In this document: positions 4,449-33,036 of the stretch, piece by piece
Layout: the number at the start of each line of letters is the position of its first letter
Position numbering within the stretch: the first letter of the stretch is position 1
IMG/VR virus record: IMGVR_UViG_3300020472_000066
Coordinates: 1-39,348 of that record
DNA length: 39,348 bases
Source: a virus
Direction: 5' to 3' (one strand)
Program-made: the position numbers and the translations under genes
The notes under the pieces: model-generated
Seen by the model: the letters and a program-made list of their open reading frames with translations, nothing else
The model's database searches: none
Told to the model about the DNA's origin: nothing

Positions 4449-4457
4449 AAAATAACT

Positions 4458-4997: not shown

Positions 4998-5011
4998 AAA
5001 TGTGCTATAAT
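4984..5011 (+). promoter_or_regulatory. possible weak promoter before the basic peptide gene
   Basis: A perfect -10 TATAAT (5006-5011) lies 24 nt before the ATG at 5036, with only a partial -35 match TTGTCG (4984-4989) at 16-nt spacing. The sequence also contains an A/T run that loosely resembles late promoters. It may give the small basic peptide separate expression from the structural operon. Confidence 0.35.
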
Positions 5012-5035
5012 ATAAGAACAATATATTGATTAATC

Positions 5036-5182: not shown

Positions 5183-5185
5183 ATA
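5178..5185 (+). promoter_or_regulatory. late-promoter-like GCTAAATA box over a stop codon
   Basis: GCTAAATA covers the TAA stop of the 48-aa peptide (5180-5182) and lies 24 nt before the ATG at 5210. It is one base from NATAAATA. The placement matches the late-type box at 33032-33039, which also contains a stop codon. Confidence 0.35.
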
Positions 5186-5209
5186 ATAGTTAGTTATTAT
5201 GCTAGTGTG

Positions 5210-5491: not shown

Positions 5492-5910
5492 TGGCACTAA
5501 AAGACATTACGAATAAGGAATTTACGAAATCTAGAAGTTTCAAGGATATTGCGGTGTCTTTTGCTAAAAATTCTTTTACTGACGACGCAGCTATCGTGAA
5601 AAATGAAAATTCGATAAAACAGTCTGTAAAAAACCTAGTTTTGACTCAAATGGGTGAAAAACCATTTCAACCTACTAAAGGATGTCGTGTTAATGCTCTT
5701 CTTTTTGAACCACTAGATCCCTTTACTGCTGATGCATTAAAGGAAGAAGTACTAAATACCATTAGGCAATATGAACCAAGGGTAAAGATTAGTGACTGTA
5801 CGGTCACTCCAATAATTGAAAGTAACAAAATCAATATTTCTATAACATATAGAGTTGTAGGATTACCTATAGTGGAAACAATAGCATTTATTTTACAGAG
5901 ACCTGAATAA
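5491..5910 (+). CDS. 25: baseplate wedge subunit gp25
   Basis: 139 residues, close to the 132 of T4 gp25. The GPW/gp25 family signature is visible: an N-terminal strand/helix region, L-T-Q-M-G-E-K-P-F-Q-P-T-K-G (51-64), L-L-F-E-P-L (70-75), and the conserved E95-P96-R97 with R-V-K-I. The C-terminal strands end I-A-F-I-L-Q-R-P-E. In contractile tails gp25 joins the wedge to the sheath and to gp6 and gp53, and is needed for sheath initiation. The start shares one base with the SET stop, and the stop shares one base with the gp6 start (TAATG at both junctions), showing tight coupling. Confidence 0.95.
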   Translation: MALKDITNKEFTKSRSFKDIAVSFAKNSFTDDAAIVKNENSIKQSVKNLVLTQMGEKPFQPTKGCRVNALLFEPLDPFTADALKEEVLNTIRQYEPRVKISDCTVTPIIESNKINISITYRVVGLPIVETIAFILQRPE

Positions 5911-7961: not shown

Positions 7962-7965
7962 TTAG

Positions 7966-10900
7966 ATGACGAATATCAATAAAGTTTCTCAATCTATTAA
8001 TACACAGGTACCAGATTTTATAGAATCTGATTACCCGTTATTCAATAAATTCATTGAATATTATTATAGATCTCAGGAGAAGACGGGCTTAGGTCAGAAT
8101 ATAATTAATAACTTCCTTCAGTATCTTAATATTGATAAGTTAGATATAGGTATTCTAGATGGAACAACTAAAATTGTCGAACCGATTACTGCTAGTAGTC
8201 AATCGATTGTTGTAGAGAGTGTTGATAAGTTTTTAAGCAATAATGGTTCAGTTTTAATAGGTGATGAGGTAGTATATTATGAAAAAACAACTGCTGCACC
8301 AAATATTGCGTTAAGTCCAGGTATTTCTTATGAGCAAGTAAAATTAAAATGGACTGATCTTGCTAGTCATATCAATGATTTTGACGGATCTACACAAAGT
8401 TTTTCATTAACATCACAATCTGCTCCTGTTGCTGTACCTTCTGCACAACATATTATTGTAAGTGTGTATGGTGACGTATTAGTTCCTGGAATAGATTATA
8501 CAATTAGTGGCACTGATATTGTTTACACTCAAGCACCTAGAACAAGACTTCCTGCAGATGATTCTTCTTCAACATATATTTTCTTCTTAAGTGGATTTGT
8601 TGAGAATACTATTGTAGGAACAGATAATTTATCTGGTTCTTTTGGGGATTCTAAGACAGAATTTGCTCTTACTAGAAATGGTATTTCATATGAACCTCTT
8701 GTAGATGAATATATTCTTGCTGTTTACGATAATAAACTTCTTATACCAAAAGTAGATTTCTTTCTTGATGGATCTAAATTTATCTTTAAAGAAGCACCTT
8801 TAAATGGTAGATATTTGTCAGTATTTTCAATTGAAGCTCCTATTCCTTCTTTTGGTAGTGGTGCTATAGGATATGCACGTGTAGATGATTCTGGTAAACT
8901 TACTGGTATTGAAACTAGTGTAACTGGTTCTTTATATCAATTTGAGTATCCTCCAAAAGTTTCTATTGGATCTGATACTGGTAGTGGTGCATCTGCTACA
9001 GCACTTGTTAATGGTATTAAATCTTCTACATTATTATCTGGTGGTAGAGGATATAGTGATACAAATCCTCCTCGTGTGGTAATTGAGAATCCTACTAAAA
9101 CAGGATCTCAAATTGCAGAATTAAAGGCAACTGTTACTAATGGAGAGATTAGTAACGTTGAGATCACCAATTCTGGTAGTGGATATACATTTACACCTAG
9201 AGTTACTTTCAAACAACCTGGAGGGGCAAAATTAGCAACTCCTACGATGCTTGGAGGTAGTATTTCTGGTGGAATTACTATTACTGATAGTGGATCTGAT
9301 TATTCTACAGTTCCTAGCATATATGTTGATGAACCAACGGGTGATAATCCAATTAGAGCATCATTACAAGCAGTTTTAACTGATGGTAAGATTACAAGTA
9401 TTACAGTATTAAATGCTGGTCAGGGTTACTTATCAACACCTAGAATTGCTGTTATTGATCCAGTAGGAGCACAAATATTAGAAACTAAAGTCGATGGAGA
9501 TGGTAGGGTAACATCTGTTGAATTACTTGATGGTGGTAGTGGATATAATGATGTTCCTTCAGTCTATATTGTTGATAGTAGAGTAGATGCTGTTGGTAAT
9601 TATATTGGTGGAGTAGGTGCAACTGCATCTGCAGCAATATTTAACGGCAAAATTACTGATATTAATATTGTTAATTTTGGTAGTGGGTATAGTGCAGATT
9701 CACCACCAAAAATTGTTATTCAAAGTCCACCTGAAGCAGAATGTTCTGTTATAATTGGTGTAAATGAAGTTACTGGTTTTAATATAAACCGTAGTGGTGA
9801 TAAGTATACTAAGGCATCATTTGAAGGATGTGCTAGAGCTGCTAGTGGTATTGTTGAATACACTGAAACTGGTAATGCAGTATTTTCTAATAATACTACC
9901 GCATCTGCAGCAGTAGTGGATACTGAAGTAAAATGTCTAGATGCTTTATTCGTTAAACGAATATTAGATAAGTATACAGAACAATTTCTTCCTGATGTAC
10001 CAGAATTAGATTATAAAAAGATTGATGTACGTACTGCAATCCAAACTATAAAGCAATTTTATAGTACTAAAGGTACTTCTTTCAGTATTGCATATTTGTT
10101 TAAGTTATTATATGGTGAACAGGTAAGTGTTTCTTATCCAAAAGATCAAATTATTAAACCATCCGCTTCTACATGGTCTATTGACACTATTTTACGTTCA
10201 ACATTAGTTAGTGGAGATCCAACTAATATTAAGGATGGTCTTTTAACACAAGAAGAAGATATTGCTGATACTAGTATTAAATCTGCTAGTGCTCTTGTAG
10301 AAAATTATATTTCTATTAAAACCTCAGAAGTTGAGATTTTTGAATTAGTTCTTTCTGAAGAAACGATTAATGGTACTTTTGTTGTTCCTTATAAGACAAA
10401 ACTTGCTGAACCACTAGGATTTGAGGATAGTGTTATAACAGTTGACTCTACTATTGGTTGGCCAGAAAGAAATGGAGAGTTTGTTATAGGAGAAGGTACA
10501 ACAACAGAAGTTGTTCAATATAAAGAAAAATCATTAAACCAGTTTATTGAGTGTACTCGTTCGGTTAATGGTACTGTTGAAGACTGGGATTCTGCTACTG
10601 AAGTAGCATCAAATTTCAATGTTTATGTAAATAAGGGAACTGCACAAGAAGTTGTACTTAATGTTGTAGGTATAGTTGATGCTCAACAAACAACACTAAC
10701 TGATACTGGTTCTTATTACTTACCTGGAGATAAATTAAGTGTTTCTAAGCTGGGAGGAACAAGTGTCTTACCAGAACTTACTACTTGGTTATATAACGTT
10801 AAAAAGCTTATTGAAGTAACACAAGTTCAGTTTGGTGGTATTGATGATAGATATGCTACTATAACATGTTCTAATCCTCATGGTTTATTGGTTGGGGATC

Positions 10901-13900
10901 AGGTAACTGTTTATGGTGCTAACCCAATTCTTTATAACGGAACTTTCCTTGTAACTTCTAGGGATAGTGAAACAGTTTTCCAATATCAACTTCCACAACC
11001 AGCTCAAGTTATTCCTCAAGGTAATATTTTAGTATCAGTTGACCTTAATTTAGGTAAATCTGATAGTTCTGCTGTTTTAAATGCTATTGGTCCTTATACG
11101 ACTAATATTCAAAATACATTTTTTAATGATAGTCACGTTTATATTGCTTCTACAGGTATTCCTAACTATAAAATTGGTCCTTTTCCTGGATCTGCACTTC
11201 TTCCAGGTAACCAACGTAAATTAAATAGGTTTCCATTAGCACCTCAGACTATTTCAACTAAAAATATTATTAATCCAGGTCCAATTGGAACATGGGTTAA
11301 TGGTGTTTCTGTATGGTCATATAAATCTAGTACTACCAAGACTTTTGGACCTGTTACAGGTATTGCTACAACAACTACAGGTTCTGGATATGATGCTGCA
11401 TCACCTCCTGTTATCACAATTAGTGGTGGCGGTGGAACTGGAGCAACTGCATCTGTAATCGTTGATGGTTCTATTAGTGAAATTACAGTAACATCAGGTG
11501 GTTCTAATTACACATCTTCTCCTCTAGTATCAATTGTTGGTGGAGGTGGTTCTGGTGCTGCTGCAACTGCTATTATAACAAAAGGGTCAGTATCTCGTAT
11601 TCTAATGAATTCTGGAGGTTCTGGATATACTTCTCAACCTTCAATTACTATTGTTGGTGGTGGTGGAACTGGAGCAACTGCTACAGCATCTGTTAGAGGA
11701 CCAATTAAACAAGTTGATGTTGATACTGGTGGTGAATCATATACATCAAGTCCAACTGTTACTTTAAGTTCTGGTGAAGGTGCAGTTGCACAAGCAATTG
11801 TAAATGATGGAAGAATTATTTCAATAGCAATAATTTCTGCTGGACAAGGATATACTACAGCACCTACAGTGTCTATACAAGGTGTAGGTTTTGGTGCTAT
11901 AGCACGTGCTACTATTGATGTAGATGGTGAAAATGCTGGTAGAGTTACAGGAATTGAAATTATAAACAGAGGTATTAACTATGTTCAAGGTACTACTATT
12001 ATTACCTTAACATCTGTAGGATCTGGTGCAACATTTACACCTTCTGTATTCCAATGGAGGTATAACTTAGATAAATCATCAACCTTTGATGGTGCAAAAG
12101 GTGGAGTATTTGAAGGATTTAATAATCAATATGGAGGTGAATATGCTCACCTTGCAAACCCTCAAACTTTAAGATATATTTTAGGTGATAATTTATATGA
12201 AAATAATTCTGGTCTTATTAAAGAACAGGAATCAAATCTCGAACACTCTCCTATAATTGGATGGGCATTTGATGGTAATCCAATTTATGGACCTTATGGA
12301 TATACTGATCCTACTGATCAGGGATCTGTTATGAAAAAATTGGATACTTCATATCAAATAAAACCTGCTATAGTTTATAATGCAATAACTAATCCATATC
12401 CAGTAAGAACATCTGGTCCTTTACTTACAGATGAAAGTGCTGGTAACTTTATTGAAGATTATGAGTATGTCTTTGGTCTTGGTGATTTAGACCAATATAA
12501 TGGTCGTTTTTGTAAAACACCAGACTATCCAGGTGGTAGATATTGCTACTTTGTTACTATCGATTCTACAGAAGATGGTAATCCTCTTTTCCCTTATGTT
12601 ATAGGTCCAAATTTCAATTCTGTAGTTGATATCTGGAACCTTGGTGAAGGTGCTACACAACAGAATATTCCTACTGGGGTTGTTCGTTACAGAGATCCTT
12701 ATGAGAATGTTGATATTGATGTTGAAAGGGCACCTAATGCTTCTACAAATGCTATAACTACCGAATCTGGTGATATTTTATTATTCGATCCAGAAGATGA
12801 TAACAATGATGGTGTTATTACTCAAGATGAGATTGATAATCCAGATCAATTATATGAAGAATCACCATTACAATTATTTGATTACTTCCCTAAAGTTAGA
12901 TTCGATTCTAAGGTTGATATCGAAGTTGAAACTACGACTAAATTTGAAGATGCTTCTGTAACTGGATTCACAGTTGAAAACCCAGGTACTAGTTATCAGG
13001 TTAATGATATTTTAGTATTTGACAATGCTAATACTGATGGAACTGGAGTTTCTGCTAGAGTTTCTAAAATTACTGGTGAAACTGTATCATCATATTCTTT
13101 TGAGAATGTTGGTGGGCAGAATTATGGTGTTTTAAAAACTGCAGTTCCTCATAATATATCTCCTGGAGATACTGCTTTTATTGATTATAATCCTATCATG
13201 GATGATACCAATAAAACATTTGTTGTACGTCAATTCAAGGGTATTGAACAAGTTGTAATTGATCAAGCAGGATCTGGGTATGATGAGGAAATACCACCAT
13301 CAATTATTATAGATGGTGATGGCATTAAAGGTGAAATTCAGGCAGTTGTAACTTCTGTTGGATCAATTAATACTGTTAATATTCTAAATTCTGGTTCTGG
13401 TTATACTCAAAACCCTCGTGTTATTTTAAGTCATCCACAAGTTTATAAGAAGGCAGATTATTATATCTCCAAGATGGTGAATAATGATTATGTAAAAATT
13501 AATGATAGTTATGTAAATGATGCTAAAGAGACTTATATTTGTGGTAAAACAAAAGATAGTCTTGGAAATGAAGTTGCTTTTGTATCTAAGTTCTCTTCTT
13601 TGGGTATTAAAGAATGGGAGAAGACATTAGAAAGTGATAGTGGATTAGAATATACAGAATGGCAAAAAATGTCTGTAGAAGGCACTGATATTTGGTTAGT
13701 TGGTGTTAATAAGCCAAATAGTCAAATTCTAAATGCTTATAACCCAGATATTATTTTAGCGAAGTATATTCAATCTGCTGATGGATTAAGTGCTGCTTTA
13801 TCTTTCCAAAAAGGATATGCTGGTATTTCTGGTTCAAATCGTGCTGATTATGTAAGTGCTGTTAAGAAATATTCTGATACTCGTTATGTTATTGGTGGAT

Positions 13901-25900: not shown

Positions 25901-28900
25901 CATGTTCAATGGATGATCATTTCTCTGATCATTCATATCCAAGAACAAGTGATCCTGTTTCTGGTGATTGGATAGAAGTTTCTAATGTAACTGATAATAC
26001 TTTTGATGTTAATGTTGGTAAATCTCCAATTAAGACATATACACCTAGAGATGCTGTTTATAATCCAACTACAGGTGCAATGGAACTTACCATTGGTAAT
26101 CATGGATTATCTAAAGGTTCAAATATTAGAATTGCTTTAGAATCAATCACATTTACTTGTGCACAAGATGGTAATGCTACTAACCACTCTTATCCAAGAG
26201 CAACTGAGGATAGTCATACTGCATGGGGAGGAACAACTTACAATCCTATTACTGGTATTCTTTCTGTTACTACACCACTCGCTCATGGAATTAGAAATGG
26301 AGATTGGGTTAAGTTTGATGAAGGTGGAATTACTTTTGAATGTTCAATGGATGAACGTTCTTCTAAGCACACCTATCCTAGAACAACAGATCCAACTTAT
26401 AACAAATGGTTAAAGGTTTCTAACGTATCCACAACCACATTTGAAGTATTTGTTGGTAAGTCTCCAACAGTAACTCACACTCCAACAGATGCAACTTATG
26501 ATCCTGCAACTGGTGATTTAGTCTTAACTATAGGTTCTCATAGTTTAGTACAAGGTACTAATGTTAGACTTCTAGAAGGAGCTGTTAGTTTCAATTGTGA
26601 TATGGATGGTGGCACTGCTACTAAGTCTTATCCTAGACCAAATATCGATAATTATACAGCAACAGGTGCAACTTATAATGGCGAAACTGGGGTAATGGTA
26701 GTTACAGTACCTCAGCATAGAATGGATACTGGTGATAAAGTTAAATTTGATCAAGATGCGTTCACATTCACATGTGAAATGGATGGAAATACTGCACAGA
26801 AAACATATCCACGTACATCAGATCCAGTTATAGACACATGGTTAGATGTTGGTGCTGTAACTGAGAACACTTTTGAAGTTAATGTTGGTACAACACCACT
26901 TGTCGGTTATGATGCACAAGCAGTTAACTACTATCCTGCTAGTGGTAATCTATACATTTTCAATCCTTCATTAGCAGCCGCTGTAAGTTTAGGAGATGGT
27001 ATTAGAATTGCACCAGAATCTTTATGGTTCTCTTGTACTGAAGATGGTAATACAACCGTTAATAAGTATCCTCGTGCTTCAGGTGCTAATACTGGTGATG
27101 GTGAAGACTATGCATATAACACTGCTCTTCCAGTTCTTTTCATCGATGGTAATCAGACATATATCGCAGTTAATGTTAACTCAGCTCTTAATACTCCAAT
27201 ATCAAATACAACTGATCATACATTCCTTTATGCTCTTCCAGGTGCAATCGTAACAGGTGGTAATTATAATCATAGTTTCGTTTCATCAACTGCTGATGGA
27301 GTTAAGATGAAGCGTGATAGAGCATATAGAAACTCTGTCGAAGTCAAATCTGTTGGTTCTGATTCAATTACAGTTAATGTTGGTAAATCACCTTTAAAAT
27401 ATCATACTCCAACAGATGCAACTTACAATCCTACTAGTGGTGATATGGTCATCACTATAGGTCTTCATACTTTGAAGGTTGGTATGTCAGTAAGACTTGC
27501 CCCTCAATCATTTGTATTCTCTTGTGATCAAGGTGGTACAGTTGGTAACGGAACTTATCCACGTGCAACTGGATCTGCAGCTGCAGGTGGTGCTGATTAT
27601 GCTTACAACAATGCAATGAATATTACTGCAGTTGATTATGCTGCTGGAACTATCACTATTAATGTTAATGGTGGTCAGGGTGCTATTACCAATACCAATA
27701 CTCATACATTTGTATCTGCGGCTGCTGGTGCGGTAATATCTGGTGGTGGTTATGCTCATACTTATGCATCAGCTCTTGCTGATTCTCTAATTACTGGTGG
27801 TAACTATGTACATACCATTACAGCAAGTAAAGGTGGTGGAATTAAGCAAAAACGTGATAGAAATTATGATACAAATGTTGAAATTATAGATGTAACTGGT
27901 GATACAATTACAGTTAATGCTGGTATATCTTCTAATACTACTACACATACATTTGTAAATGCAGATGCTCAAGCAATATCCACTGGTGGTAACTATACAC
28001 ATACCTTTAAATCCGCATTACCTAATGCTATTACTAGATCAGTCTTAATGTCTGGTGGTAATTATAATCATAAATTTATATCTGCTCTTACTAATGCTAT
28101 TAGTACTGGTGGTAATTACGTTCATACCTTTGTATCATTTGCAAATAATGGATTAGTTGTTGCTGGTAGTTCAGTATTCTTAGATCCAAGTTCTATTAAA
28201 TTTACTTGTGATAAGGATTCAAATGAAGAGATAGCAGCATATCCAAGAACTACTGATCCTTCATACAATCAAGTTATAAGAGTAACAGATTCTGTTGCTA
28301 ATACTAGCATTACAGTAAACGTTGGAAAATCTGGATCTGATGATCAATATGTACATACATTCTCTGCTGCAAATACAAACGCAATAACACAATCTAAGTA
28401 TTCGACACAAGATTGCACAGATGTTTATACAACAACTGGAAACTTGATGGATATAGTAACTGATACTTTAGAGCAAGCAAATCTAGCAAGTCCTGTAGAC
28501 CATCTTGCATCTGTTGCAAGAGTAGAAGCTGCTCAAGAATTTGCTGGTGGTAGAGTTGATGAATATATTGATACACCATTTGATGTGTCATTCCATGATT
28601 CTGCTAATGACATCCTATATGCAAATCAAGTTGATGCTGATACTCAGTATAGATTCCGTGATGCAGCAAATCTAGTACGTGCTAATCGTGGAGTTATTCT
28701 TGATAAGGCTTCATATGATATGCTTGCTAGATATCCAGATCTTGCTTTGGATATGCCTAGAAATACAGATGGAAGTGGAGCAGGTACTTTACGTTGCCAG
28801 CAAGATATTGGATTAATTATTGATGCGGTTGCTAACGATCTTGAATCAGGTGGAAATAGAAATATTGTTACTGGTGCTAAATTCTATATCGGACAAAGTG

Positions 28901-31900
28901 GTGAATTACAACATATTCGTTTACAAGTATTCCAGTCTGTATATGCACATGATCGTGTAGGTCATTATGTTAAGCAGTGTGTAACTGGTGATTTAGATTA
29001 TACAAATACTAATGATATTATTGTTGGTGATTGGGGTATTACAAATGATGCTGGTGGATGTGCTAATGTTAAGACTGCCGTTGATACTTTAATTACAACT
29101 GCTAATGATATTATTGCTCCTACTGATAATGACTTTAATATCGCTGCAGATCGTCTATACTTCAATAGATTGTATATTGCTCAGGAAATAACAGGTCTTA
29201 CTACTGCAGAATTTACTTATCAATTAAATGGTGTTAATTACCAAGCACATGCATATCCAGGTGATAATGGTGAATTGACATGTCAAAGAGATATTAAGTT
29301 AATAATTCTTAGTATCATATCTGATTTACAAACTGGTGGTAATAATAGTACTATTGCTGCAATTGAAACATATCTAACAGCTAACCTTCAAATTGATGAA
29401 GTTGAGAATGAATTACTTGCTACTTTATTCTCTATTGAAAAACTTAAATTGCTTTGTGAAAAGGCAGTTAGAAATTTACTTTATACATTCAGTGAGGCTG
29501 TAACTGGTCAACAATATCAAGCACAACATTCAAATCAAAATGCATATAGAGATGCTTTAAGTCCTACAGATATTAATGCTGTAGTTTATAGAGTAAGAGA
29601 TTTAGTTGAAACTGCAGTTCTTATGCTTGCTCCTGGTAAAATTGATGCTAGAAGTGCTGCTAAGAATATTCTTTATAATAAGAATTATTATGTTCAAGAA
29701 ATTGGTGCTATTGTTAATCAACAATTTGGTACTGGTACATGGACATATGATAACTTTGTTACTGGATTAACGGATGATATTGTTCATGATCTTATTACTA
29801 CAGATGTAAATTCTACTACTAGAGCATATAAGATTCTTATTAATACAGTTAGTGGAAACTTTAAAGATGGTGAGGTATTAAGATACCCTAGTGGTAATGC
29901 TGAAATATTAGAATTTGATGCAGCAAATAATCATTTGTATATCAAACCTACTACAACTAATGTACCAGCACCATCTGATACTCTTGTTGGACAGGGAAGT
30001 GGTGCTACTGCAACTTACGCTAGTGTTGTATCAGTCTATAACGTTTATTCAAAACCAACTAATGTTAAGATTCTGAATACAGCAAGGCAAATAACTTCTA
30101 ATATTCAAGGTCAAGTTTCTTCTGATAACCTTGTACCTACTCCTGAAACATTTAGTTCTCCTAATTGGACAGCAATTGAGACAACAGTTTCAACTAATGA
30201 TGGTGCTGTAACATCTCAACCACCTGATTTTGATCTTTCTACAAATTATACTGCAGATAAATTAACTTCAACCACAGTAGCTGGTACTCATGGCATCTAT
30301 AAGAGATACACCATGAGTTACTATGATACATTTGATGATGGTAATTTAACATGGGATAACGCTGATAATACATTAGACGAAGGTCCATTTAATATAACTC
30401 AATTCCGTAATTACACATTCTCTACTTTCGTTAAAGCTGGTACAGAATCAAATGTACACATTAGGGTAACATTAGACGTTGATTATGTTGGAAGACAGGA
30501 TGCTTTCTTCAACCTTGATTTGACTAATGGATCAACTAGTTCTATATTCCAACCTCAGGGTGGTGTAAATGTTGATGCATATGGTGCAATTCCATTTGGA
30601 GATGGTTGGTATAGAGCATATATCACATTAACATTCTCTTGGGGATTCAGACAATTTGTACCTTATATTGGTCTTAATAATAACATATCATATAATACAG
30701 CAACAGATCTTCTTGTTTGGGGTGCTAAGATTGCTGAAGGTGCATTAGATCCTTATACTTCTGTAGCAGGTCAAGTATTCTATGGTGATATGGAATACAA
30801 TGTTAAGCAGTATGCTCTTAACCTGTTGAATACTTATATGAAGCAATCTATTACAGGTACTCTTGTTGCTCCATCTCCACAAGTTAGTTTCTACTCTTAT
30901 TATGATTCTACTATTGCATCAAATTATGATGAAAAATCTGTTAGAGAATTTATTAATGGTTCTTTAGATATTATAAGTAAGCAGTTAGCTGTAGATACTC
31001 ATTATACTACCTTACCAACTTATAATGGTATAGTTATTCCTACTAAGAATTATGGAACAAGAACTATTCCTACAGGAATTAGAGGTGGAGTAAATAACAC
31101 TGATTATCTTTATGGAACATGGAGTGATTCATCTGCTGAATTGGAAAGAATTTCAACAAATGAAGGTGAGGTTGTTAAGATTTATCAGAGATTCCGTATT
31201 GATGGAGATATTACAGATGGTCCATTCACAATGGGTGAGGGTGTTAAGAAGCAAGGTGCTCCTTCAATTACTGGTATTGTTTATGGTTATCATTTCGATG
31301 AAAATTATAAGTACCTAGATGTACAAGTTACTGCTGGTCCTTGGGCAATCACTGATTATATTGTGGGAGATGATAATTCAACAACTGCACAAATCAGTCA
31401 AATAGAAGATAGAATACACATCATTGATCTTAAAGGTGAATTTAATAATGATATTCCATTCAAGGGTTATACTTCTGGCAATACTGCAACTCCAACTGGA
31501 TTCATTAAGAATCAAGCAGCAACATTAGATAATACTGGTGGTACTTTAACAGTTGACACTGAGACTCTATTAGGTTCATTTGAAACAACTTCTGTTGTTT
31601 ATCCAGAATCTTCTAGACAATACTTAGATGTTAGTAAGTATGCTGGTCTTAATCTTGGTGTTGGATCTAGAATTGCCTCTGGTGGATACATTAGACTTGG
31701 AATTAGTATAGTAAGTTCATTGAATGCCTTTACAGTTGGAAATAGACTTTATAAGATTATTAATGGTTCACAAGATCCAACACAATATGGAATAATATCT
31801 GAGGTTGATTTAGATAATAATTATCTTTATATCGCAGAATATCAAGGAACATTTAATAATGGTGATCTTGTTGGTGATTATGGAGATGGAATAACTGGGT

Positions 31901-33036
31901 TCCCAGTTGGTTACGCATCTATTACAACTAAGACTACAACTGCTGGTGCTGCTTCAGCATTAGTTCAAGATATTCGTGATGTTGGTATTAATAAGAGATT
32001 ATATCTAAGTGATATAAAAGGAACATTTAGTACTAGAGATTGGATACGTGGTCCTGAAGATTATAGATCCGTCGTTCTTTCAAAAGAAACTTTACTCGCT
32101 CGTGTTAAACGTTCATTTAAAGGATTTGATGGTACTCAGACTACATTCCCATTAACTATAACCAATGGTACTCAGTACTTACCAGATCCAGAAGGACATC
32201 TAATGGTATTTGTTAATGGTATATTACAACCTCCAGGATCTACTTTAGCATATACAGCGTTCTCTAACCAGATTCAGTTTACAGAAGCACCAGATCTAGG
32301 AGCATCATTTACAGGATTCTACATAGGTAAATTGAGACAATTGGATGATATCTCATTCGAGTTTGACTCTTTACGTCAGTCATTTAACCTTAAGCGTAAT
32401 GATATATTCTATTCATTGACACTTACGGATGGTGTTCAATCTGCTACAATTCTTCCAGAAAACAATATCATCGTTTCTCTAAATGGTGTTATTCAGGAAC
32501 CAGGCGTAGGTTTCGAGATTGTTGGTTCTAGAATTATCTTCTCTGAGATTCCTCGTGTGGGATCAACATTCGTTGCCTTCTCATATGTTGGTTCTGAGGC
32601 AGACGTTGACGCTGCTGAAGTTGTTCCACCAATTGAACCAGGCGACTTTATAGATATACAAGGTGAAACAGAAGATAGAGAAGTTGCTGTTATTGAATCT
32701 TCTAACTCTCTAATCACATTTGACTATCTCGGATCTGTCTTTGGACAAAATGCTCAGGGTCAAGCAAATATTATTACTGGATTTATTAGAGATGTACAAG
32801 TAACAGGTGGTGGTTCTGGATATAGTACAAGACCTACAGTAAGAATCGATTCTGTATCAGGATTTGATGGACAGATTCGTGCTTTGATTGGGGTCGCTGG
32901 TGTTGAAATGAGTGCATCTGGATCAAATTATCAAGAACCAGATATTACAATAGAAACATCAGTTCCTGATGATTGGACTGCTCCTGATTTAAGTCAATAT
33001 GGTGAAGAACTAGTTGACCCTGAAATACTTCCATAA
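7966..33036 (+). CDS. giant modular baseplate/tail adhesin-like protein (8356 aa), in gp7 position
   Basis: One open frame of 8356 codons with no stop and consistent codon use, starting with ATG 4 nt after gp6. Domains in order: residues 1-290, a phage-structural N-terminus (F-I-E-S-D-Y-P-L-F-N-K-F-I-E-Y-Y) with two 'Q/L-x-PG' strand modules; 299-620, GSGY repeats; about 690-735, a conserved baseplate segment (F-Y-S-T-K-G-T-S-F-S-I-A-Y-L-F-K-L-L-Y-G); 1128-1359, more GSGY repeats; 1424-1555, YHYH domain; 1611-1622, EF-hand loop; 1827-2215, seven-bladed beta-propeller; 2226-2430, LamG-like; 3010-3260, GSGY; 4052-4259, second LamG-like; 4311-6809, repeat array; 6899-7173, helical modules; about 7389-7601, carbohydrate-binding-like jelly roll; 8049-8212, two strand modules; C-terminal GSGY repeat. 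T4 gp7 (1032 aa) occupies this position, but I see no specific gp7 similarity. The most likely role is a wedge-anchored fibre or decoration that binds host polysaccharide or protein. The lack of any frameshift argues against assembly error. Confidence 0.88.
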   Translation: MTNINKVSQSINTQVPDFIESDYPLFNKFIEYYYRSQEKTGLGQNIINNFLQYLNIDKLDIGILDGTTKIVEPITASSQSIVVESVDKFLSNNGSVLIGDEVVYYEKTTAAPNIALSPGISYEQVKLKWTDLASHINDFDGSTQSFSLTSQSAPVAVPSAQHIIVSVYGDVLVPGIDYTISGTDIVYTQAPRTRLPADDSSSTYIFFLSGFVENTIVGTDNLSGSFGDSKTEFALTRNGISYEPLVDEYILAVYDNKLLIPKVDFFLDGSKFIFKEAPLNGRYLSVFSIEAPIPSFGSGAIGYARVDDSGKLTGIETSVTGSLYQFEYPPKVSIGSDTGSGASATALVNGIKSSTLLSGGRGYSDTNPPRVVIENPTKTGSQIAELKATVTNGEISNVEITNSGSGYTFTPRVTFKQPGGAKLATPTMLGGSISGGITITDSGSDYSTVPSIYVDEPTGDNPIRASLQAVLTDGKITSITVLNAGQGYLSTPRIAVIDPVGAQILETKVDGDGRVTSVELLDGGSGYNDVPSVYIVDSRVDAVGNYIGGVGATASAAIFNGKITDINIVNFGSGYSADSPPKIVIQSPPEAECSVIIGVNEVTGFNINRSGDKYTKASFEGCARAASGIVEYTETGNAVFSNNTTASAAVVDTEVKCLDALFVKRILDKYTEQFLPDVPELDYKKIDVRTAIQTIKQFYSTKGTSFSIAYLFKLLYGEQVSVSYPKDQIIKPSASTWSIDTILRSTLVSGDPTNIKDGLLTQEEDIADTSIKSASALVENYISIKTSEVEIFELVLSEETINGTFVVPYKTKLAEPLGFEDSVITVDSTIGWPERNGEFVIGEGTTTEVVQYKEKSLNQFIECTRSVNGTVEDWDSATEVASNFNVYVNKGTAQEVVLNVVGIVDAQQTTLTDTGSYYLPGDKLSVSKLGGTSVLPELTTWLYNVKKLIEVTQVQFGGIDDRYATITCSNPHGLLVGDQVTVYGANPILYNGTFLVTSRDSETVFQYQLPQPAQVIPQGNILVSVDLNLGKSDSSAVLNAIGPYTTNIQNTFFNDSHVYIASTGIPNYKIGPFPGSALLPGNQRKLNRFPLAPQTISTKNIINPGPIGTWVNGVSVWSYKSSTTKTFGPVTGIATTTTGSGYDAASPPVITISGGGGTGATASVIVDGSISEITVTSGGSNYTSSPLVSIVGGGGSGAAATAIITKGSVSRILMNSGGSGYTSQPSITIVGGGGTGATATASVRGPIKQVDVDTGGESYTSSPTVTLSSGEGAVAQAIVNDGRIISIAIISAGQGYTTAPTVSIQGVGFGAIARATIDVDGENAGRVTGIEIINRGINYVQGTTIITLTSVGSGATFTPSVFQWRYNLDKSSTFDGAKGGVFEGFNNQYGGEYAHLANPQTLRYILGDNLYENNSGLIKEQESNLEHSPIIGWAFDGNPIYGPYGYTDPTDQGSVMKKLDTSYQIKPAIVYNAITNPYPVRTSGPLLTDESAGNFIEDYEYVFGLGDLDQYNGRFCKTPDYPGGRYCYFVTIDSTEDGNPLFPYVIGPNFNSVVDIWNLGEGATQQNIPTGVVRYRDPYENVDIDVERAPNASTNAITTESGDILLFDPEDDNNDGVITQDEIDNPDQLYEESPLQLFDYFPKVRFDSKVDIEVETTTKFEDASVTGFTVENPGTSYQVNDILVFDNANTDGTGVSARVSKITGETVSSYSFENVGGQNYGVLKTAVPHNISPGDTAFIDYNPIMDDTNKTFVVRQFKGIEQVVIDQAGSGYDEEIPPSIIIDGDGIKGEIQAVVTSVGSINTVNILNSGSGYTQNPRVILSHPQVYKKADYYISKMVNNDYVKINDSYVNDAKETYICGKTKDSLGNEVAFVSKFSSLGIKEWEKTLESDSGLEYTEWQKMSVEGTDIWLVGVNKPNSQILNAYNPDIILAKYIQSADGLSAALSFQKGYAGISGSNRADYVSAVKKYSDTRYVIGGYTNTNSLYPDDAFLASIDTTGNFAIKRKIASSTKSERITDLVVLGDDIYFIMETSTDANAADTNVVFGKATIGLSAIEVEWTKELSNSVYSFLDTSICVDEFNEFYITATCQQKANDTTQDSLWVCKLSNIGSIIWNKRYVMPDTGITAVNKGVIDIFGDLNIGYSQTSSTNGYSKVGTIKVGYDGVMKKHTTNEFNKNNIEGLKIHSLSVDNSGDVYSYGQTVWNRNEFIFKFDSGETTDTTGHYTPTFIGTGDALALDSTNGLVKFLGRDTINTATWENAAIQFTAASLGTRLAQDWTMEFMLYKDGTLTNTHGQNSETLIGIGDATDTTGGLWLYYDQTTPSNGALTLVVTNSTTALNAAGSALTSTVTTMYADNTWQFIGIKKAGDLFTVYVNGISVISGTLAATSLGNKDLWIGNQPGWSGTTGQFQSGQQGQWWLDNLRLRNRAITPTVPADIVVLPLVGAFAPTYDWQDDAWFTANLNQYDYLDYVGWGLKSDKNSDSDRLGDKGLQTNTQLGFARTAVTPVVGSTLTVTNTGYALGSAGFQTLDFDDATTSMNQDTETLVHTSDLWSSRTSTVPSPGSSKLKVSAVVKDKYYFKVTNTTKIDNVQELTINQDFMFTVGAKLRLNNDSGTFVNSGYILRKDDANNKVYVAVNNNEWTNDTNTGFLLTEQFDEASSYGIVGPVPDDTNEIVDYTFTLVDNTTPGTFDIDLDKYNLDGTYNAGGSQNLDSYAKFKPFSIADYSIKIEEVSGGSSFIPGSVIDINTGDISFNASYSTAQIINLTGVLKISLTANLTKILQVTNVANTDEVYVITATGHYLSAGEMIYVDGNPTQELSGTAYDEYDGSFTVDSVISSLEFIYKLPTAALTSPATSAGGVSVFAKSPVLQMYYGHQYLFDMSHSSLAGANLSFSKDNLYKLEYSFNSIERIGTPGLTGEGQPTPTVKLKVDNDIVTNISYYFDPSRLGDDSPISEGAYLDIVDSPYLGNFTITSISGATITTGADTFKFKLANEPEGNAAVAQTTYSTSSLAAVGKISDIRIVNAGGFYSKLPIITGIQSTRQIERVQIKEPGTEYAVGTYNQIPIGGDGEGGLVTITVADGQDAEGVTIPGQIQEVVVTSPGKGYTTATIDVESIDGILGAGLAGSGADLEVVIPPFGTGASIFTKGNKVGKIKKLKNNNFGYDYSHDYTLRPEITFPINAQLTSTSILDSITVTDPGSGYSQAPAVVITGGGGSGAVAEATIKNGRIDQILVKDSGAGYSSTPAVELKSSFNYVVNLDLGLFQFAFPHGIVNGAEVTLNVVDTGDGADFPLSSGATGRLNGTTTYYAITGTANSLEDDQLKLAITASNASLGDALGFVNAGEGRQQILTSSFGGAAEANVITSTFLEGELVYQGDSLEVATATGYVSTNSGWQIGPRILKVVDYTGSWLEGQRLTGVISKSSGIISDLAIAKGVLEIGSITRTTGQFIDDIGKPSEIIQKIQDSYYYQDFSYAVKSAVSIGEWKEILLKNVHPASFKVFGELNLNEYGLIPNKETAFQLTKSVELARQATVPNIQSFALVEPIYTEFNNTEVLFRQKRLTSSENILTSVVQRVDDISTLFDGERIAFPLTVDQNTIVANANQLMIVLNGIVQTPDTAFKIEGDSIVFADPPQPPASVKYVSVTINQIATVRLTFTNISGIFPTVGNSLVGTASTARLIVTKVEGNDIYGYITEGTFIPGIPSGELCTVSATGFSANLTGQFAVANIGLFTYGETVTNLTGDIAKVEEVNLESGSETPLAKLRYTIGASTTSFEVISNTLTDDSPVPAGTFETSKKYQFGAEIFLVNSIANNTESTTLSVTRAQDGTAAVSQQEDIPIYGTDISVTNTLTLSKTTGTYKSTPGLYDIQLNDVIIGAGSGVVASITATQTYKDPVTNEFIEQVNISPGSSFFGLLFNRITSQTYPNVVLDDISKSQVSIVKYDDNATAFNSQFPSNEQINNIVVPYDNPSGSLTTGEIIRNYKMEYGNNDGEFIATEPGRVRRLTFREKLGTGFFSQGHVIRTRDTKAEVIGYNQARNTIYLGKIGRTQANGQDIHTATFKGSAQIDTAQKKYGGASLLLAAASFDYINIPSSAETAFGADAFTIEMWVRSATSSLSGTATLLDGRVSAASEIAPRLYLEAGQLRYHVNGSDLVTSGATTLNNDVWYHVCVQRSSTTVKILLNGAEVGTGTDSSSYVSKPVRIGCDYTGANGFSGNIDEFRLSNTNRYTSLPFAPQDGIFQGDANAKMLFHFDGIDGQTWSNDWSGTEAFTSNEYFNNDSILESTRISGAHIYVGGTVSNAITITAGAVQKDVTDATYNPITGDLVLTIGSHSFTTSDTVTIAQSSLTFTCSKDGHSTNHSYPRTTDPAYNTAIAITGVSATTLTVNVGIAKVPAGFANRSQRYINASILIDANKDFIANEAVYIMKQVFPSFTIIGGEINCEDDVRDILTSVISDLRNGSNSSIWDAAAFYVDRTQNPVALRQIENEIPQSLFVINKVEEMVKYIINNELWDIQGDHGLAQITDTTITESGYSGLTQFTPTDATYSPSTGDLVLTIGSHSLTGPTELSPIDASYSATTGYLTLQVNNHQLPVGTKVKIKENSLVMNCTSDGNTVDQSYPRPDDPAAQGWLEISNIQTNTFDVFVGKSPTVNYTPTAGTYDGETGWLTMNIGDHSLRTGSKYTAKSATYTAGTGVLSVTVDTPIFDVTDAKYNPISGELELIIGTHSLTKGNKVNIKQDSLSFTCSMNGNETTKTYPRTTDPVYNQSIKITDVTATSITVNVGTTTNTEHDVTNATYSTTSGDMELTIGSHTLTVGESIYIKPNSLTFNCGSGSGTYPRGADANTSDGADYAYEAALEITAVSGTTITVNVNGGQGAISNSDAHSWGGGTASKAVVSGGDYTHTFASALSDAITVDHGLFIGDRVLIEEDSLTFTCDMDSNLTYHTYPRKTDPKFNKWLELSNVTTNTFDVNVGTTTLSNFTPTAATYDASTGEMELTIGAHTLKQGATIKIADNSLTFTCSMDANGSNHTYPRSTDPVSGASIPITGVTDTTININVGKSPLVKYNVTNATYNPTSGDMVLTIGTAHGLTNGTSIKIATESLWFTCDYNSDGNTTTKKYPRASGASTTGNAGADYAYNTAVSITAADQAAGTITVNVNGGQGAITDTTAHNWVDRTAFNAIETGGSYTHAFVTGQGAATNAITAGGSYTHTFISAVPNGITRSGETIKMLKDGITFSCDQDNYSTDHSYPRGDDPAHDTSLPIYIDGETLTAANASYNSLTGDISITIPSHGLSTTDQIRIENNSLTFTCSRDKNISVHNYPRPGIDPFAGRWLRVKSFTTDTFTVNVGASPSDQQYTHSFVTALENGIVKKNNSITVNVGASPTKSYAPTAATYNSSTGAMELTIGSHSLPAPTTHTPTDVAYNPTTGIMTLTISGHGFSNGEKIKIADGGLKLSCAFGGASGTAAQKDYPRSTDPISNKWTAISNVTTDTFDVQVLDVVPSTNTDTHSFVSAVSGCVSKANSTLKVAPNSLLFSCTEGAGNYAYPRTQVARHTAGPGTTYNPATGIVEIKVSQDSHTPTAVTYDPTSGDMVLTIALNSGTKDVSGATYNPSTGDLVLDIGAHTLTTNDRIKLAEESLTFTCNYLGDGNQTQKKYPRASGASTTGNNGADYAFDTYLDITAVDQSGGTITININGGQGAITDISTHQFVSATSGAVILGHGFVVGDRIKIAEESLTFTCDYNGDGNTTNKVYPRSNGNDFAYNTALMIKAVTGTSITVNVNGGQGAITDTTTHNFVTGQAAANNCITSVHGMRPGTPIMFVDDSITFACGFQGALGDDQKKTYPRSTDPVSGRWLFINNVTETSFKIQVLDSVPSTNTDSHTWVTASINGIIEGDPLVAQAVPVDAVTSTTVTINPLDGYTSTNTSTHTFQGLSSYQYQPTAATYNAETGAMTITSNSHGMKDGERILIRDNALTFTCSMDDHFSDHSYPRTSDPVSGDWIEVSNVTDNTFDVNVGKSPIKTYTPRDAVYNPTTGAMELTIGNHGLSKGSNIRIALESITFTCAQDGNATNHSYPRATEDSHTAWGGTTYNPITGILSVTTPLAHGIRNGDWVKFDEGGITFECSMDERSSKHTYPRTTDPTYNKWLKVSNVSTTTFEVFVGKSPTVTHTPTDATYDPATGDLVLTIGSHSLVQGTNVRLLEGAVSFNCDMDGGTATKSYPRPNIDNYTATGATYNGETGVMVVTVPQHRMDTGDKVKFDQDAFTFTCEMDGNTAQKTYPRTSDPVIDTWLDVGAVTENTFEVNVGTTPLVGYDAQAVNYYPASGNLYIFNPSLAAAVSLGDGIRIAPESLWFSCTEDGNTTVNKYPRASGANTGDGEDYAYNTALPVLFIDGNQTYIAVNVNSALNTPISNTTDHTFLYALPGAIVTGGNYNHSFVSSTADGVKMKRDRAYRNSVEVKSVGSDSITVNVGKSPLKYHTPTDATYNPTSGDMVITIGLHTLKVGMSVRLAPQSFVFSCDQGGTVGNGTYPRATGSAAAGGADYAYNNAMNITAVDYAAGTITINVNGGQGAITNTNTHTFVSAAAGAVISGGGYAHTYASALADSLITGGNYVHTITASKGGGIKQKRDRNYDTNVEIIDVTGDTITVNAGISSNTTTHTFVNADAQAISTGGNYTHTFKSALPNAITRSVLMSGGNYNHKFISALTNAISTGGNYVHTFVSFANNGLVVAGSSVFLDPSSIKFTCDKDSNEEIAAYPRTTDPSYNQVIRVTDSVANTSITVNVGKSGSDDQYVHTFSAANTNAITQSKYSTQDCTDVYTTTGNLMDIVTDTLEQANLASPVDHLASVARVEAAQEFAGGRVDEYIDTPFDVSFHDSANDILYANQVDADTQYRFRDAANLVRANRGVILDKASYDMLARYPDLALDMPRNTDGSGAGTLRCQQDIGLIIDAVANDLESGGNRNIVTGAKFYIGQSGELQHIRLQVFQSVYAHDRVGHYVKQCVTGDLDYTNTNDIIVGDWGITNDAGGCANVKTAVDTLITTANDIIAPTDNDFNIAADRLYFNRLYIAQEITGLTTAEFTYQLNGVNYQAHAYPGDNGELTCQRDIKLIILSIISDLQTGGNNSTIAAIETYLTANLQIDEVENELLATLFSIEKLKLLCEKAVRNLLYTFSEAVTGQQYQAQHSNQNAYRDALSPTDINAVVYRVRDLVETAVLMLAPGKIDARSAAKNILYNKNYYVQEIGAIVNQQFGTGTWTYDNFVTGLTDDIVHDLITTDVNSTTRAYKILINTVSGNFKDGEVLRYPSGNAEILEFDAANNHLYIKPTTTNVPAPSDTLVGQGSGATATYASVVSVYNVYSKPTNVKILNTARQITSNIQGQVSSDNLVPTPETFSSPNWTAIETTVSTNDGAVTSQPPDFDLSTNYTADKLTSTTVAGTHGIYKRYTMSYYDTFDDGNLTWDNADNTLDEGPFNITQFRNYTFSTFVKAGTESNVHIRVTLDVDYVGRQDAFFNLDLTNGSTSSIFQPQGGVNVDAYGAIPFGDGWYRAYITLTFSWGFRQFVPYIGLNNNISYNTATDLLVWGAKIAEGALDPYTSVAGQVFYGDMEYNVKQYALNLLNTYMKQSITGTLVAPSPQVSFYSYYDSTIASNYDEKSVREFINGSLDIISKQLAVDTHYTTLPTYNGIVIPTKNYGTRTIPTGIRGGVNNTDYLYGTWSDSSAELERISTNEGEVVKIYQRFRIDGDITDGPFTMGEGVKKQGAPSITGIVYGYHFDENYKYLDVQVTAGPWAITDYIVGDDNSTTAQISQIEDRIHIIDLKGEFNNDIPFKGYTSGNTATPTGFIKNQAATLDNTGGTLTVDTETLLGSFETTSVVYPESSRQYLDVSKYAGLNLGVGSRIASGGYIRLGISIVSSLNAFTVGNRLYKIINGSQDPTQYGIISEVDLDNNYLYIAEYQGTFNNGDLVGDYGDGITGFPVGYASITTKTTTAGAASALVQDIRDVGINKRLYLSDIKGTFSTRDWIRGPEDYRSVVLSKETLLARVKRSFKGFDGTQTTFPLTITNGTQYLPDPEGHLMVFVNGILQPPGSTLAYTAFSNQIQFTEAPDLGASFTGFYIGKLRQLDDISFEFDSLRQSFNLKRNDIFYSLTLTDGVQSATILPENNIIVSLNGVIQEPGVGFEIVGSRIIFSEIPRVGSTFVAFSYVGSEADVDAAEVVPPIEPGDFIDIQGETEDREVAVIESSNSLITFDYLGSVFGQNAQGQANIITGFIRDVQVTGGGSGYSTRPTVRIDSVSGFDGQIRALIGVAGVEMSASGSNYQEPDITIETSVPDDWTAPDLSQYGEELVDPEILP
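8860..9825 (+). repeat. first block of glycine-rich GSGY protein repeats
   Basis: At least seven imperfect units encode the pattern 'G-x-I-T-x-I-x-I-x-N-x-G-S-G-Y-x-x-x-P-x-V-x-I-x-x-P'. Examples are S-G-G-R-G-Y-S-D-T-N-P-P, N-S-G-S-G-Y-T-F-T-P and D-G-G-S-G-Y-N-D-V-P. Each unit looks like a pair of beta strands with a tight Gly turn, as in a beta-helix or beta-solenoid stalk. The same unit recurs in the 848-aa, 1472-aa and gp7-position proteins. Confidence 0.75.
11347..12040 (+). repeat. second block of GSGY repeats, with G-G-G-G insert
   Basis: Five or six units with a regular core, for example T-G-S-G-Y-D-A-A-S-P-P-V-I-T-I-S-G-G-G-G, then G-T-G-A-T-A-S and on to the next S-G-G-S-N-Y. The regularity (roughly 38-40 residues per unit) is higher than in the first block and suggests later duplication. 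A low-complexity but conserved beta-solenoid is the likeliest fold. Confidence 0.75.
12235..12630 (+). other. YHYH domain in the giant protein
   Basis: Residues 1424-1555 contain the YHYH-family core: H-S-P-I-I-G-W-A-F-D-G-N-P-I-Y-G-P-Y-G-Y, then D-Y-E-Y-V and L-D-Q-Y-N-G-R-F-C-K-T-P-D-Y-P-G-G-R-Y-C-Y-F-V-T, ending P-L-F-P-Y-V-I-G-P. The family is widespread in secreted and phage-structural proteins, often next to cupredoxin domains; the activity is unknown. A second, split YHYH domain is in the 1472-aa protein. Confidence 0.8.
12796..12831 (+). other. single EF-hand-type calcium-binding loop
   Basis: Residues 1611-1622 read D-D-N-N-D-G-V-I-T-Q-D-E. Positions 1 (D), 3 (N), 5 (D), 6 (G), 8 (I) and 12 (E) fit the canonical 12-residue EF-hand loop exactly. 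It is isolated, between the YHYH domain and a GSGY segment, as in dockerin/excalibur-type single loops of extracellular proteins. Calcium binding is inferred. Confidence 0.6.
13444..14610 (+). other. probable seven-bladed beta-propeller (SBBP/WD-like)
   Basis: Residues 1827-2215 contain seven evenly spaced strand motifs: E-T-Y-I-C-G, D-I-W-L-V-G, R-Y-V-I-G-G, D-I-Y-F-I-M, E-F-Y-I-T-A, D-L-N-I-G-Y and D-V-Y-S-Y-G. Most are followed by a second strand like 'D-x-x-L-A-K/S-x-D-x-x-G' (D-A-F-L-A-S-I-D-T-T-G-N). This is the layout of extracellular SBBP beta-propellers, which bind ligands or sugars. The blade count by eye matches a closed seven-bladed propeller. Confidence 0.65.
14640..15255 (+). 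other. LamG/concanavalin-like jelly-roll domain 1
   Basis: Residues about 2226-2430 show W-T-M-E-F-M-L-Y-K-D-G, T-W-Q-F-I-G-I-K-K-A-G, F-T-V-Y-V-N-G-I-S and D-L-W-I-G-N, ending W-W-L-D-N-L-R-L-R-N-R-A-I. These are the usual strands of a LamG-like carbohydrate/ligand-binding sandwich. It follows the propeller directly. Confidence 0.7.
17000..17740 (+). repeat. third block of GSGY repeats
   Basis: Units such as D-P-G-S-G-Y-S-Q-A-P-A-V-V-I-T-G-G-G-G and D-S-G-A-G-Y-S-S-T-P-A-V, and the looser V-N-A-G-G-F-Y-S-K-L-P and S-P-G-K-G-Y-T-T-A-T, spread over about 740 nt. Same family as the other blocks. Confidence 0.7.
20120..20740 (+). other. LamG/concanavalin-like jelly-roll domain 2
   Basis: Residues about 4052-4259: K-Y-G-G-A-S-L-L-L, F-T-I-E-M-W-V-R-S, D-V-W-Y-H-V-C-V-Q-R-S, V-K-I-L-L-N-G-A-E-V-G, V-R-I-G-C-D-Y and G-N-I-D-E-F-R-L-S-N-T-N-R-Y. 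This is a clear LamG sequence, closer to the family consensus than domain 1. It lies directly before the long repeat array. Confidence 0.85.
20932..21650 (+). repeat. 35-nt exact direct repeat in the array (20932-20966 and 21616-21650)
   Basis: Both copies read GGTGATTTAGTACTAACAAT and continue identically to 35 nt, encoding G-D-L-V-L-T-I-G-S-H-S. The identity extends over third codon positions, so it reflects recent DNA duplication or gene conversion rather than protein constraint alone. Confidence 0.8.
21160..21505 (+). other. helical module 1, inside the repeat array
   Basis: Residues about 4399-4514: A-S-I-L-I-D-A-N-K-D-F-I-A-N-E-A, then I-N-C-E-D-D-V-R-D-I-L-T-S-V-I-S-D-L-R-N-G, then an E-N-E-I-P-Q-S-L-F-V-I-N-K-V helix. 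It is homologous to modules 2 and 3 after the array. It is predicted wholly helical and cuts the array after its first unit. Confidence 0.7.
22567..23461 (+). repeat. 34-nt exact direct repeat in the array (22567-22600 and 23428-23461)
   Basis: Both copies start ACAGTTAACGTCAATGGTGG and are identical for 34 nt, encoding T-V-N-V-N-G-G-Q-G-A-I. They mark the type-B units of the array. Other copies (near 25040, 25300 and 27660) are related but diverged at synonymous positions. Confidence 0.8.
28645..29005 (+). other. helical module 2
   Basis: Residues about 6894-7013: D-A-A-N-L-V-R-A-N-R-G-V-I-L-D-K-A, then L-R-C-Q-Q-D-I-G-L-I-I-D-A-V-A-N-D-L-E-S, G-G-N-R-N-I-V and a further helix to V-G-H-Y-V-K-Q-C-V. 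I recall this 'C-x-x-D-I...D-L-x-x-G-G-N' module from other marine phage structural proteins. Its function is unknown. Confidence 0.65.
29130..29485 (+). other. helical module 3
   Basis: Residues about 7055-7173: A-A-D-R-L-Y-F-N-R-L-Y-I-A-Q-E-I, then L-T-C-Q-R-D-I-K-L-I-I-L-S-I-I-S-D-L-Q-T, G-G-N-N-S-T-I and V-E-N-E-L-L-A-T-L-F-S-I-E-K. It aligns with modules 1 and 2. Confidence 0.65.
30130..30770 (+). other. carbohydrate-binding-like jelly-roll domain
   Basis: Residues about 7389-7601: L-V-P-T-P-E-T-F-S-S-P-N-W-T, A-D-K-L-T-S-T-T, Y-T-F-S-T-F-V-K-A-G-T-E, A-F-F-N-L-D-L-T-N-G and G-D-G-W-Y-R-A-Y-I-T, then W-G-A-K-I-A-E-G-A-L-D-P-Y-T-S-V. This is the characteristic order of the phage fibre CBM-like sandwich ('NLL...W', 'YTFSxxVKAG', 'GWYR', 'WGAQLE'). 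It probably binds surface sugars. Confidence 0.7.

Follow-up and report, generated by a model that had tools for sequence, protein, structure and literature searches.

Each wedge of a contractile-tail baseplate contains one gp7-like and two gp6-like chains (PMC6300606, PMC10457771). In the gp7 orthologue of XM1 only an internal loop (residues 80-106) and the C-terminal tail (201-242) lie outside the ordered core, and both of these parts bind tailspikes (PMC10457771). Among cyanophages, P-SSM4 gp7, with 7312 aa, was reported by a 2021 survey as the largest protein among the bacterial viruses it examined (PMC8553790). A 2020 paper described T4 gp7 as absent from cyano- and pelagimyophages, with VrlC as its substitute (PMC7029224). 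Virion proteomics has recovered several large products from such phages: purified S-SM1 virions contain multiple T4-GC969 peptides (Sullivan et al. 2010, PMC3037559), the 6619-aa protein 208 of S-SZBM1 is represented by 71 virion peptides at 13.5% coverage (PMC9146016), and a 1937-aa product encoded after gp6 in S-CREM2 by 91 peptides (PMC10665884).

Here we describe a giant protein encoded in a 39,348-base stretch of DNA (hereafter the window), a virus record that is probably a fragment and derives from a marine T4-like, Kyanoviridae-like cyanophage with a baseplate gene set. Genes of this kind are known; the useful part of the present case is a split wedge core and the pattern by which the protein grew around it.

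Genomic context and reality of the giant frame

The window presents the gene order phrog_719, PAAR, gp25, gp6, giant, gp9-like, gp10-like and gp8 (Table 1), which from gp25 on is identical in P-SSM4 and S-SM1; a giant likewise occupies the slot right after gp25-gp6 in P-SSM4, S-SM1, S-SZBM1 and P-RSM6. The initial annotation placed the gene between gp6 and gp8: it does follow gp6, its ATG start codon lying 4 bases past the gp6 stop codon, but the gp9-like and gp10-like genes come first downstream and gp8 is only the third. The gp6 gene itself has tblastn matches in 2315 phage records.

Three smaller frames were also observed. A 94-aa ORF between the PAAR and gp25 genes (5207-5491, + strand) matches the SET domain (PF00856, E 1e-8); its close relatives are few, namely in the Prochlorococcus phages P-RSM6 and P-SSM7, one Pelagibacter phage and one single-cell marine virus, with the P-RSM6 relative in the equivalent position immediately before gp25. 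These relatives hint that the host may be Prochlorococcus. A 56-aa ORF (1512-1682, + strand) has a match to the DNA-binding domain of the antitoxin MazE (PF04014, E 8.9e-6). Antisense to gp9, a further open frame of 187 aa (33269-33832, - strand) is probably a by-product of codon bias.

Table 1. Features of the window, with positions on the 39,348-base stretch and residues (aa) of the giant protein
Feature	Residues	Position	Strand	Support
Baseplate protein (phrog_719), 848 aa		1902..4448	+	PHROG E 2.7e-282; S-SM1 has equivalent place
PAAR-family spike-tip protein		4458..4997	+	phrog_281 E 3.3e-25
gp25, sheath initiator / wedge subunit		5491..5910	+	phrog_261 E 3.4e-63
gp6, baseplate wedge subunit, expected gp7 partner		5910..7961	+	phrog_219 E 2.4e-221
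Giant, probable gp7 orthologue	1-8356	7966..33036	+	8356 aa, predicted 895 kDa, pI 4.6; one uninterrupted frame
Core piece 0, N-terminal helices, putative core-bundle hairpin	7-54	7984..8127	+	weak HMM, low-confidence AlphaFold
Beta domain, two copies	139-290	8380..8835	+	self-BLAST E 2.4e-8 to 5.9e-7; phrog_10330, phrog_18673
GxGY array 1, inside insertion 1	309-588	8890..9729	+	self-BLAST E 3.8e-19
Core piece 1, FYSTKG...LFKLLYGE helix pair	677-729	9994..10152	+	BLASTP, PF23786, HMM, PDB profile search
Insertion 2 between core halves, 2728 residues	730-3457	10153..18336	+	12 residues in minimal gp7s
GxGY array 2	1128-1339	11347..11982	+	self-BLAST E 5.1e-10 to 6.0e-12
YHYH domain	1388-1534	12127..12567	+	PF14240 E 2.9e-30
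Single EF-hand-like loop DDNNDGVITQDE	1611-1622	12796..12831	+	pattern match
GxGY array 3	3074-3292	17185..17841	+	self-BLAST E 5.8e-10 to 3.9e-12
Core piece 2, SYYYQDFSYAVKS...VHPASFKVFGE	3458-3507	18337..18486	+	BLASTP, phrog_26741, phrog_3465, HMM
C-terminal extension, 4849 residues	3508-8356	18487..33033	+	1 residue in Ackermannviridae minimal gp7
Recurring beta domain, later copies	3572-3634, 8061-8209	18679-18867, 32146-32592	+	self-BLAST
LamG / concanavalin-like domain	4085-4225	20218..20640	+	PF13385 E 3.6e-20
21-unit array of ~78-aa repeat	4313-6788	20902..28329	+	HMM search; AlphaFold pLDDT 85
Duplicated modules, helical by eye	6891-7254, also 4398-4499	28636..29727	+	self-BLAST E 9.4e-10
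Conserved C-terminal region	7401-8356	30166..33033	+	tblastn matches in 314 phage records
gp9-like wedge/tail-fibre connector		33066..34292	+	phrog_677 E 2.5e-193; PF07880 E 2.2e-11
gp10-like wedge protein, own GxGY and YHYH		34298..38716	+	phrog_708 E 0; PF14240 E 2.6e-12
gp8 wedge subunit, truncated at window end		38751..39347	+	phrog_438 E 1.8e-94

The giant gene had been called as a single frame of 8356 codons, and this is borne out by the absence of any internal stop; the remaining five frames over the same interval carry 430-1262 stops each, with a longest open run of at most 114 codons. The G+C content at the three codon positions is gene-like (~47/44/12%) along the entire length. Measured against G001, a relative with 95% identity, the overall dN/dS is 0.18 and each 600-codon block falls within 0.08-0.30; against G002 the ratio is 0.25. 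The chain is under purifying selection throughout, repeats included. The metagenomic type of the record and the long repeat region might suggest that the frame arose in assembly, from misjoined or expanded repeats. However, the 39,348-base window contains neither exact repeats of at least 40 bases nor TRF tandem arrays, and short reads should therefore be able to resolve the ORF. Further, separately assembled IMG/VR contigs encode uninterrupted frames closely similar in length and repeat count (G001, 8359 aa; G002, 8458 aa; G003, 8214 aa), and a protein of 8573 aa (CPXG_00128) is encoded in the equivalent slot by the cultured phage P-RSM6. An assembly artefact is thus exceedingly improbable.

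A large family of virion proteins

Profile searches show that PHROG_701 (6136 positions) covers the giant almost end to end: pieces 1-4 and 8 of the giant align in order with positions 1-4272 and 5202-6135 of the model, and the repeat region gives many overlapping matches. At a tblastn coverage of at least 80%, the N-terminal region was recovered in 290 deposited cyanophage records and the C-terminal region in 279. Labels in the family are gp7, as for the P-SSM4 counterpart (YP_214641, 7312 aa), or virion structural protein. The protein is less unusual than was first suggested: it belongs to a large known family and, because P-RSM6 has 8573 aa, does not hold the record for length.

The published proteomics can be tied directly to this family. 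T4-GC969 is SSM1_102, a 6180-aa gene in the giant's slot in S-SM1; S-SZBM1_208 comes immediately behind gp6 and gp25, and on our inspection it contains both of the core pieces described below, and the 1937-aa product of S-CREM2 matches the first of them. The virion proteomics proposed as a check on the initial annotation is thereby answered favourably through orthologues, those of S-SM1 and S-SZBM1 having been detected in virions. Hence, the family itself is already known and found in virus particles, and its virion membership is well supported by these papers on orthologues from other phages.

A gp7 core split across the chain

That the giant fills the slot of gp7 had been noted earlier; it is also homologous to gp7, as indicated by BLASTP, profiles and HMMs. 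Core piece 1 is the FYxxKG helix pair, a membership feature of gp7 that is present in the giant: T4 gp7 734-759 matches giant 698-723 (BLASTP E 6e-5), PF23786 is recovered with E 5.2e-7, and an HMM of non-cyanophage gp7s aligns at 679-729 with 36.9 bits. Core piece 2, the HPxGF segment, follows core piece 1 in the same order as in gp7, and is recovered by phrog_26741 (E 3.1e-10), phrog_3465 (E 9.1e-11) and the non-cyanophage HMM (3463-3503, 20.9 bits); its pairwise BLAST match to T4 gp7 is weak. These HMMs were built from the gp7s of Ackermannviridae, Vibrio, Rhizobium and T4 phages, and for both pieces none of the 300 composition-preserving local shuffles used as controls reached the score. 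Direct comparison with the 284-aa minimal gp7 of the Salmonella phage SP-9-14, whose gene immediately follows gp6, pairs its residues 184-221 with giant 692-729 (BLASTP E 2.1e-4) and 236-280 with giant 3463-3503 (E 9e-5). Three independent families (PF23786, phrog_26741 and phrog_3465) give collinear matches flanking an insertion of 2.7 kaa; the second stretch of PF23786, beyond this insertion, matches weakly (E 0.07). A putative further part of the core, core piece 0, consists of helices modelled by AlphaFold with low confidence at 7-14, 17-22, 24-40 and 50-54; its match to the non-cyanophage HMM is weak (6.5 bits, reached by 0 of 300 shuffles). Together the core pieces make up less than 2% of the chain. 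The lowest dN/dS relative to G001 (0.08) is that of the block with core piece 2, and the core piece 1 block has 0.12.

When 70 cyanophage sequences were used to build a profile for the 940 residues at the N terminus, and this was run against 177,635 PDB sequences, T4-type gp7 provided the best two matches (E 0.0035 and 0.0042), both at the FYSTKG motif. It was detected by the family profile alone, a phmmer search of the PDB with residues 1-1000 yielding no match. A PDB fold search with the model of residues 1-940 did not recover gp7 significantly (one 5iv5 chain at E 0.14); its best hit by E-value, 9occ (8.5e-5), was rejected as meaningless given a TM of 0.07.

Could the giant instead be unrelated to gp7 and have replaced it, with VrlC taking over the role? 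The reported absence of T4 gp7 with VrlC in its stead (PMC7029224) would fit this, as would the lack of recognisable T4 domains V and VI in the giant. However, these domains (Pfam Gp7_5th and Gp7_6th) match T4 only and, since they are missing from the minimal gp7s as well as from the giant, they are not family-defining. Moreover, P-SSM4 and S-SM1 encode VrlC in a gene of its own, located downstream of gp8, and the split-core matches are collinear in several independent profiles, with the shuffle controls and the unbiased PDB search in agreement. The replacement scenario is therefore already strongly disfavoured, and we deem it very unlikely. Rather, the identification of the giant as the cyanophage orthologue of the T4 baseplate wedge protein gp7 is well supported by sequence, and on this evidence, contrary to the statement in PMC7029224, gp7 is present but split in cyanophages. 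No prior description of a split gp7 core was found in the literature open to searching, subscription journals and preprints excepted, and the growth of a giant protein around such a core seems not to have been reported before.

In the Vibrio phage K485 the minimal gp7 (L005:7757-8764, PF23786 E 7e-62) is deposited under the label 'head closure Hc2', a label shared by phrog_3465 and phrog_460.

Insertions, accreted domains and growth by repeats

Core pieces 1 and 2 are separated by 12 residues in both SP-9-14 and Vibrio K485, 89 in T4, where they correspond to domain V, 423 in the Rhizobium phage Y68, 1593 in S-RIM44, 2176 in ACG-2014f, 2239 in P-SSM2, 2728 in the window and 2818 in P-RSM6. The residues past core piece 2 number 1, 92, 135 and 14 in SP-9-14, Vibrio K485, T4 and Rhizobium Y68, respectively, and 1408, 1775, 2671, 4849 and 4968 in S-RIM44, ACG-2014f, P-SSM2, the window and P-RSM6. 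A third insertion, insertion 1 (aa ~55-676), is found in the window's clade and is small in P-SSM2 and S-RIM44.

Of the module kinds first listed for the giant, GxGY (15), YHYH, LamG and the novel repeat are borne out; the EF-hand turns out to be a single EF-hand-like loop, and the 'propeller' and 'CBM-like' assignments found no support when Pfam and PDB matches were sought in the giant. By eye, seven candidate propeller-like blades can be seen at aa 1841-2145. The EF-hand-like loop DDNNDGVITQDE is present at the equivalent place in P-SSM4, P-SSM7, G002 and G007 and has no Pfam match. The lectin-like domain, a membership feature of adhesins, is present as LamG (PF13385), for which carbohydrate binding is predicted.

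A beta domain recurs at the start, middle and end of the chain. Its families phrog_10330 and phrog_18673 comprise virion structural and tail fibre proteins. In the fold search based on residues 1-940, 8jov chain 1 was also recovered (prob 1.00; 81 columns, target TM 0.52), and the recurring domain may therefore be one already known from phage tails. On visual inspection it looks like the domain found at the N terminus of T7-type tail fibres.

The ~78-residue repeat shows near-invariant Y, G, H, F, C, D, YPR and D positions, including one conserved cysteine per unit, and is modelled by AlphaFold as a confident all-beta fold (pLDDT 85). A fold search of the PDB with this model gave no match (best E 0.2), with a 79-column match to the E1 enzyme 7sol (prob 0.60) as a lead only. 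Among predicted viral structures, the named matches are mainly tail, fibre and baseplate proteins of cyanophages, and the repeat also occurs in other cyanophage genes, short tail fibres among them. At a threshold of at least 25 bits in the HMM search, the giant has 21 copies. Within the window's clade the count is 1 in S-MbCM100 (6064 aa), 2 in S-SM1 and S-SSM5, 11 in P-SSM7 and P-SSM4, 15, 19 and 21 in further members, 21 in the window and 23 in G002; P-RSM6, from another clade, has 18. Over ten proteins of the clade, which are kin to each other and hence not independent points, length follows 5974 + 109 n for n repeats (r = 0.997). Thus, in the closest family protein length is set by repeat number. 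The longest proteins come mainly from phages of Prochlorococcus NATL strains, counts that are confounded by kinship; a link between repeat number and isolation host was dropped owing to this confounding and to an exception, Syn30, with a Synechococcus host and many repeats.

Mechanistic interpretation

These observations lead to the proposal, which we regard as quite likely, that the giant is a gp7 orthologue whose split core carries accreted domains as a covalent arm on each wedge; the wedge-attached multi-domain protein of the initial annotation is thus the best reading, with its basis in the gp7 slot and gp7 homology. A small ancestral core would persist in three pieces, the N-terminal helices (aa ~7-54), the FYxxKG pair (677-729) and the VHPxxF segment (3458-3507), which by homology are expected to meet in the folded protein as the lone gp7 chain of a (gp6)2-gp7 wedge. 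With one copy for each wedge, there would be six per baseplate. The rest, including the GxGY, YHYH and LamG modules and the 21 repeats, would be accretions: one loop at aa ~55-676, a second at 730-3457, and the C-terminal part from 3508 to 8356. These added domains would hang from every wedge as a multi-domain arm that could touch the cell surface as well as further proteins of the wedge. On the simplest interpretation, material docked onto gp7 in other phages would here be fused in cis, giving six lectin-like and beta-repeat arms. The outward course of the arm and its role in adhesion are, like its copy number and the (gp6)2-gp7 assembly, what we infer.

Since this phage has YHYH and GxGY in further baseplate proteins as well, they could be wedge-packing modules rather than receptor binders. 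In a rival arrangement, the added domains would be packed together as a structural skirt of a larger baseplate, perhaps one with two layers, and separate fibres would bind the receptors. The recurring beta domain, too, is shared with other baseplate proteins, and a double-layered baseplate has been proposed for cyanophages (PMC7029224). Close packing would, however, ill tolerate a repeat number that runs from 1 to 23 among relatives, and the fold matches of the repeat include annotated tail-fibre proteins. We consider the packed arrangement a genuine contender, albeit with less than even chances.

A third alternative, raised already in the initial annotation, is a polyprotein-like precursor cut during or after assembly into several virion proteins. 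Its appeal lies in the extreme length and modularity of the chain, and the published peptide lists fit a whole or a cut chain alike. Yet, Pfam scans of the giant detected no protease domain, an unsystematic look revealed no conserved cleavage pattern, and frames of 6,000-8,600 codons are intact in every close relative examined. T4 baseplate proteins are not known to be proteolytically processed. A cleaved polyprotein thus finds no support, and we hold it to be highly improbable.

Returning to the preferred reading of a covalent arm on each wedge, a bolder and rather doubtful extension is that the split-core wedge scaffold serves as a host-reading organ, six covalent arms of ~0.9 MDa each, lengthened by the addition of repeat units, replacing separate long tail fibres. 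Micrographs of S-SZBM1 show no long tail fibres, and such fibres or their genes are reported lacking in P-RSM6 and S-WAM1 (PMC9146016). These reports are in keeping with this extension; S-SZBM1 and P-RSM6 carry giant gp7s (6619 and 8573 aa).

Comparison with known baseplate proteins

The 284-residue wedge protein, T4 gp7 and the cyanophage proteins of 3,000-8,600 residues can be arranged as one series of evolutionary anatomy. New material appears to have entered at the C terminus and in two loops of fixed location; the longest clade grew by adding copies of a single repeat. The published claim that gp7 is missing from very abundant ocean phages would thereby be corrected. The series also predicts that the core pieces, despite the ~2,700 residues between them, lie next to each other in the wedge.

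The nearest described proteins are the cyanophage gp7s, or 'baseplate wedge initiators' (PHROG_701), which share with the giant the slot, near-full collinearity, the split core and the module kinds, and range in identity from 95% (G001) to ~62-72% in the terminal regions. Well-known isolates have 1-11 repeat copies and 6064-7312 aa against 21 copies and 8356 aa in the window, whereas P-RSM6 gp7 (8573 aa) is longer. T4 gp7 (PDB 5HX2, 5IV5) resembles the giant in having its gene after gp6 and the FYSTKG motif followed by a VHPxxF segment; it differs in having only 89 residues, domain V, between the halves and a 640-residue N-terminal part that precedes the helical domain, whereas growth in the giant affected two internal loops and the C terminus. 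The minimal gp7s (PF23786; SP-9-14 of Ackermannviridae, 284 aa, and Vibrio K485, 335 aa) are likewise encoded right after gp6 and possess the core pieces but, unlike the giant, are nearly core alone, with 12 residues between the halves. By published description, XM1 gp17, P2 gpI and TssG are likewise the third chain of a (gp6-like)2-gp7-like wedge (PMC10457771, PMC6300606); they are only a few hundred residues long, and the adhesins or TssK attach to them as separate chains instead of being fused. The places at which the XM1 protein binds tailspikes are of the same kind, internal loops and C terminus, as those expanded in the giant.
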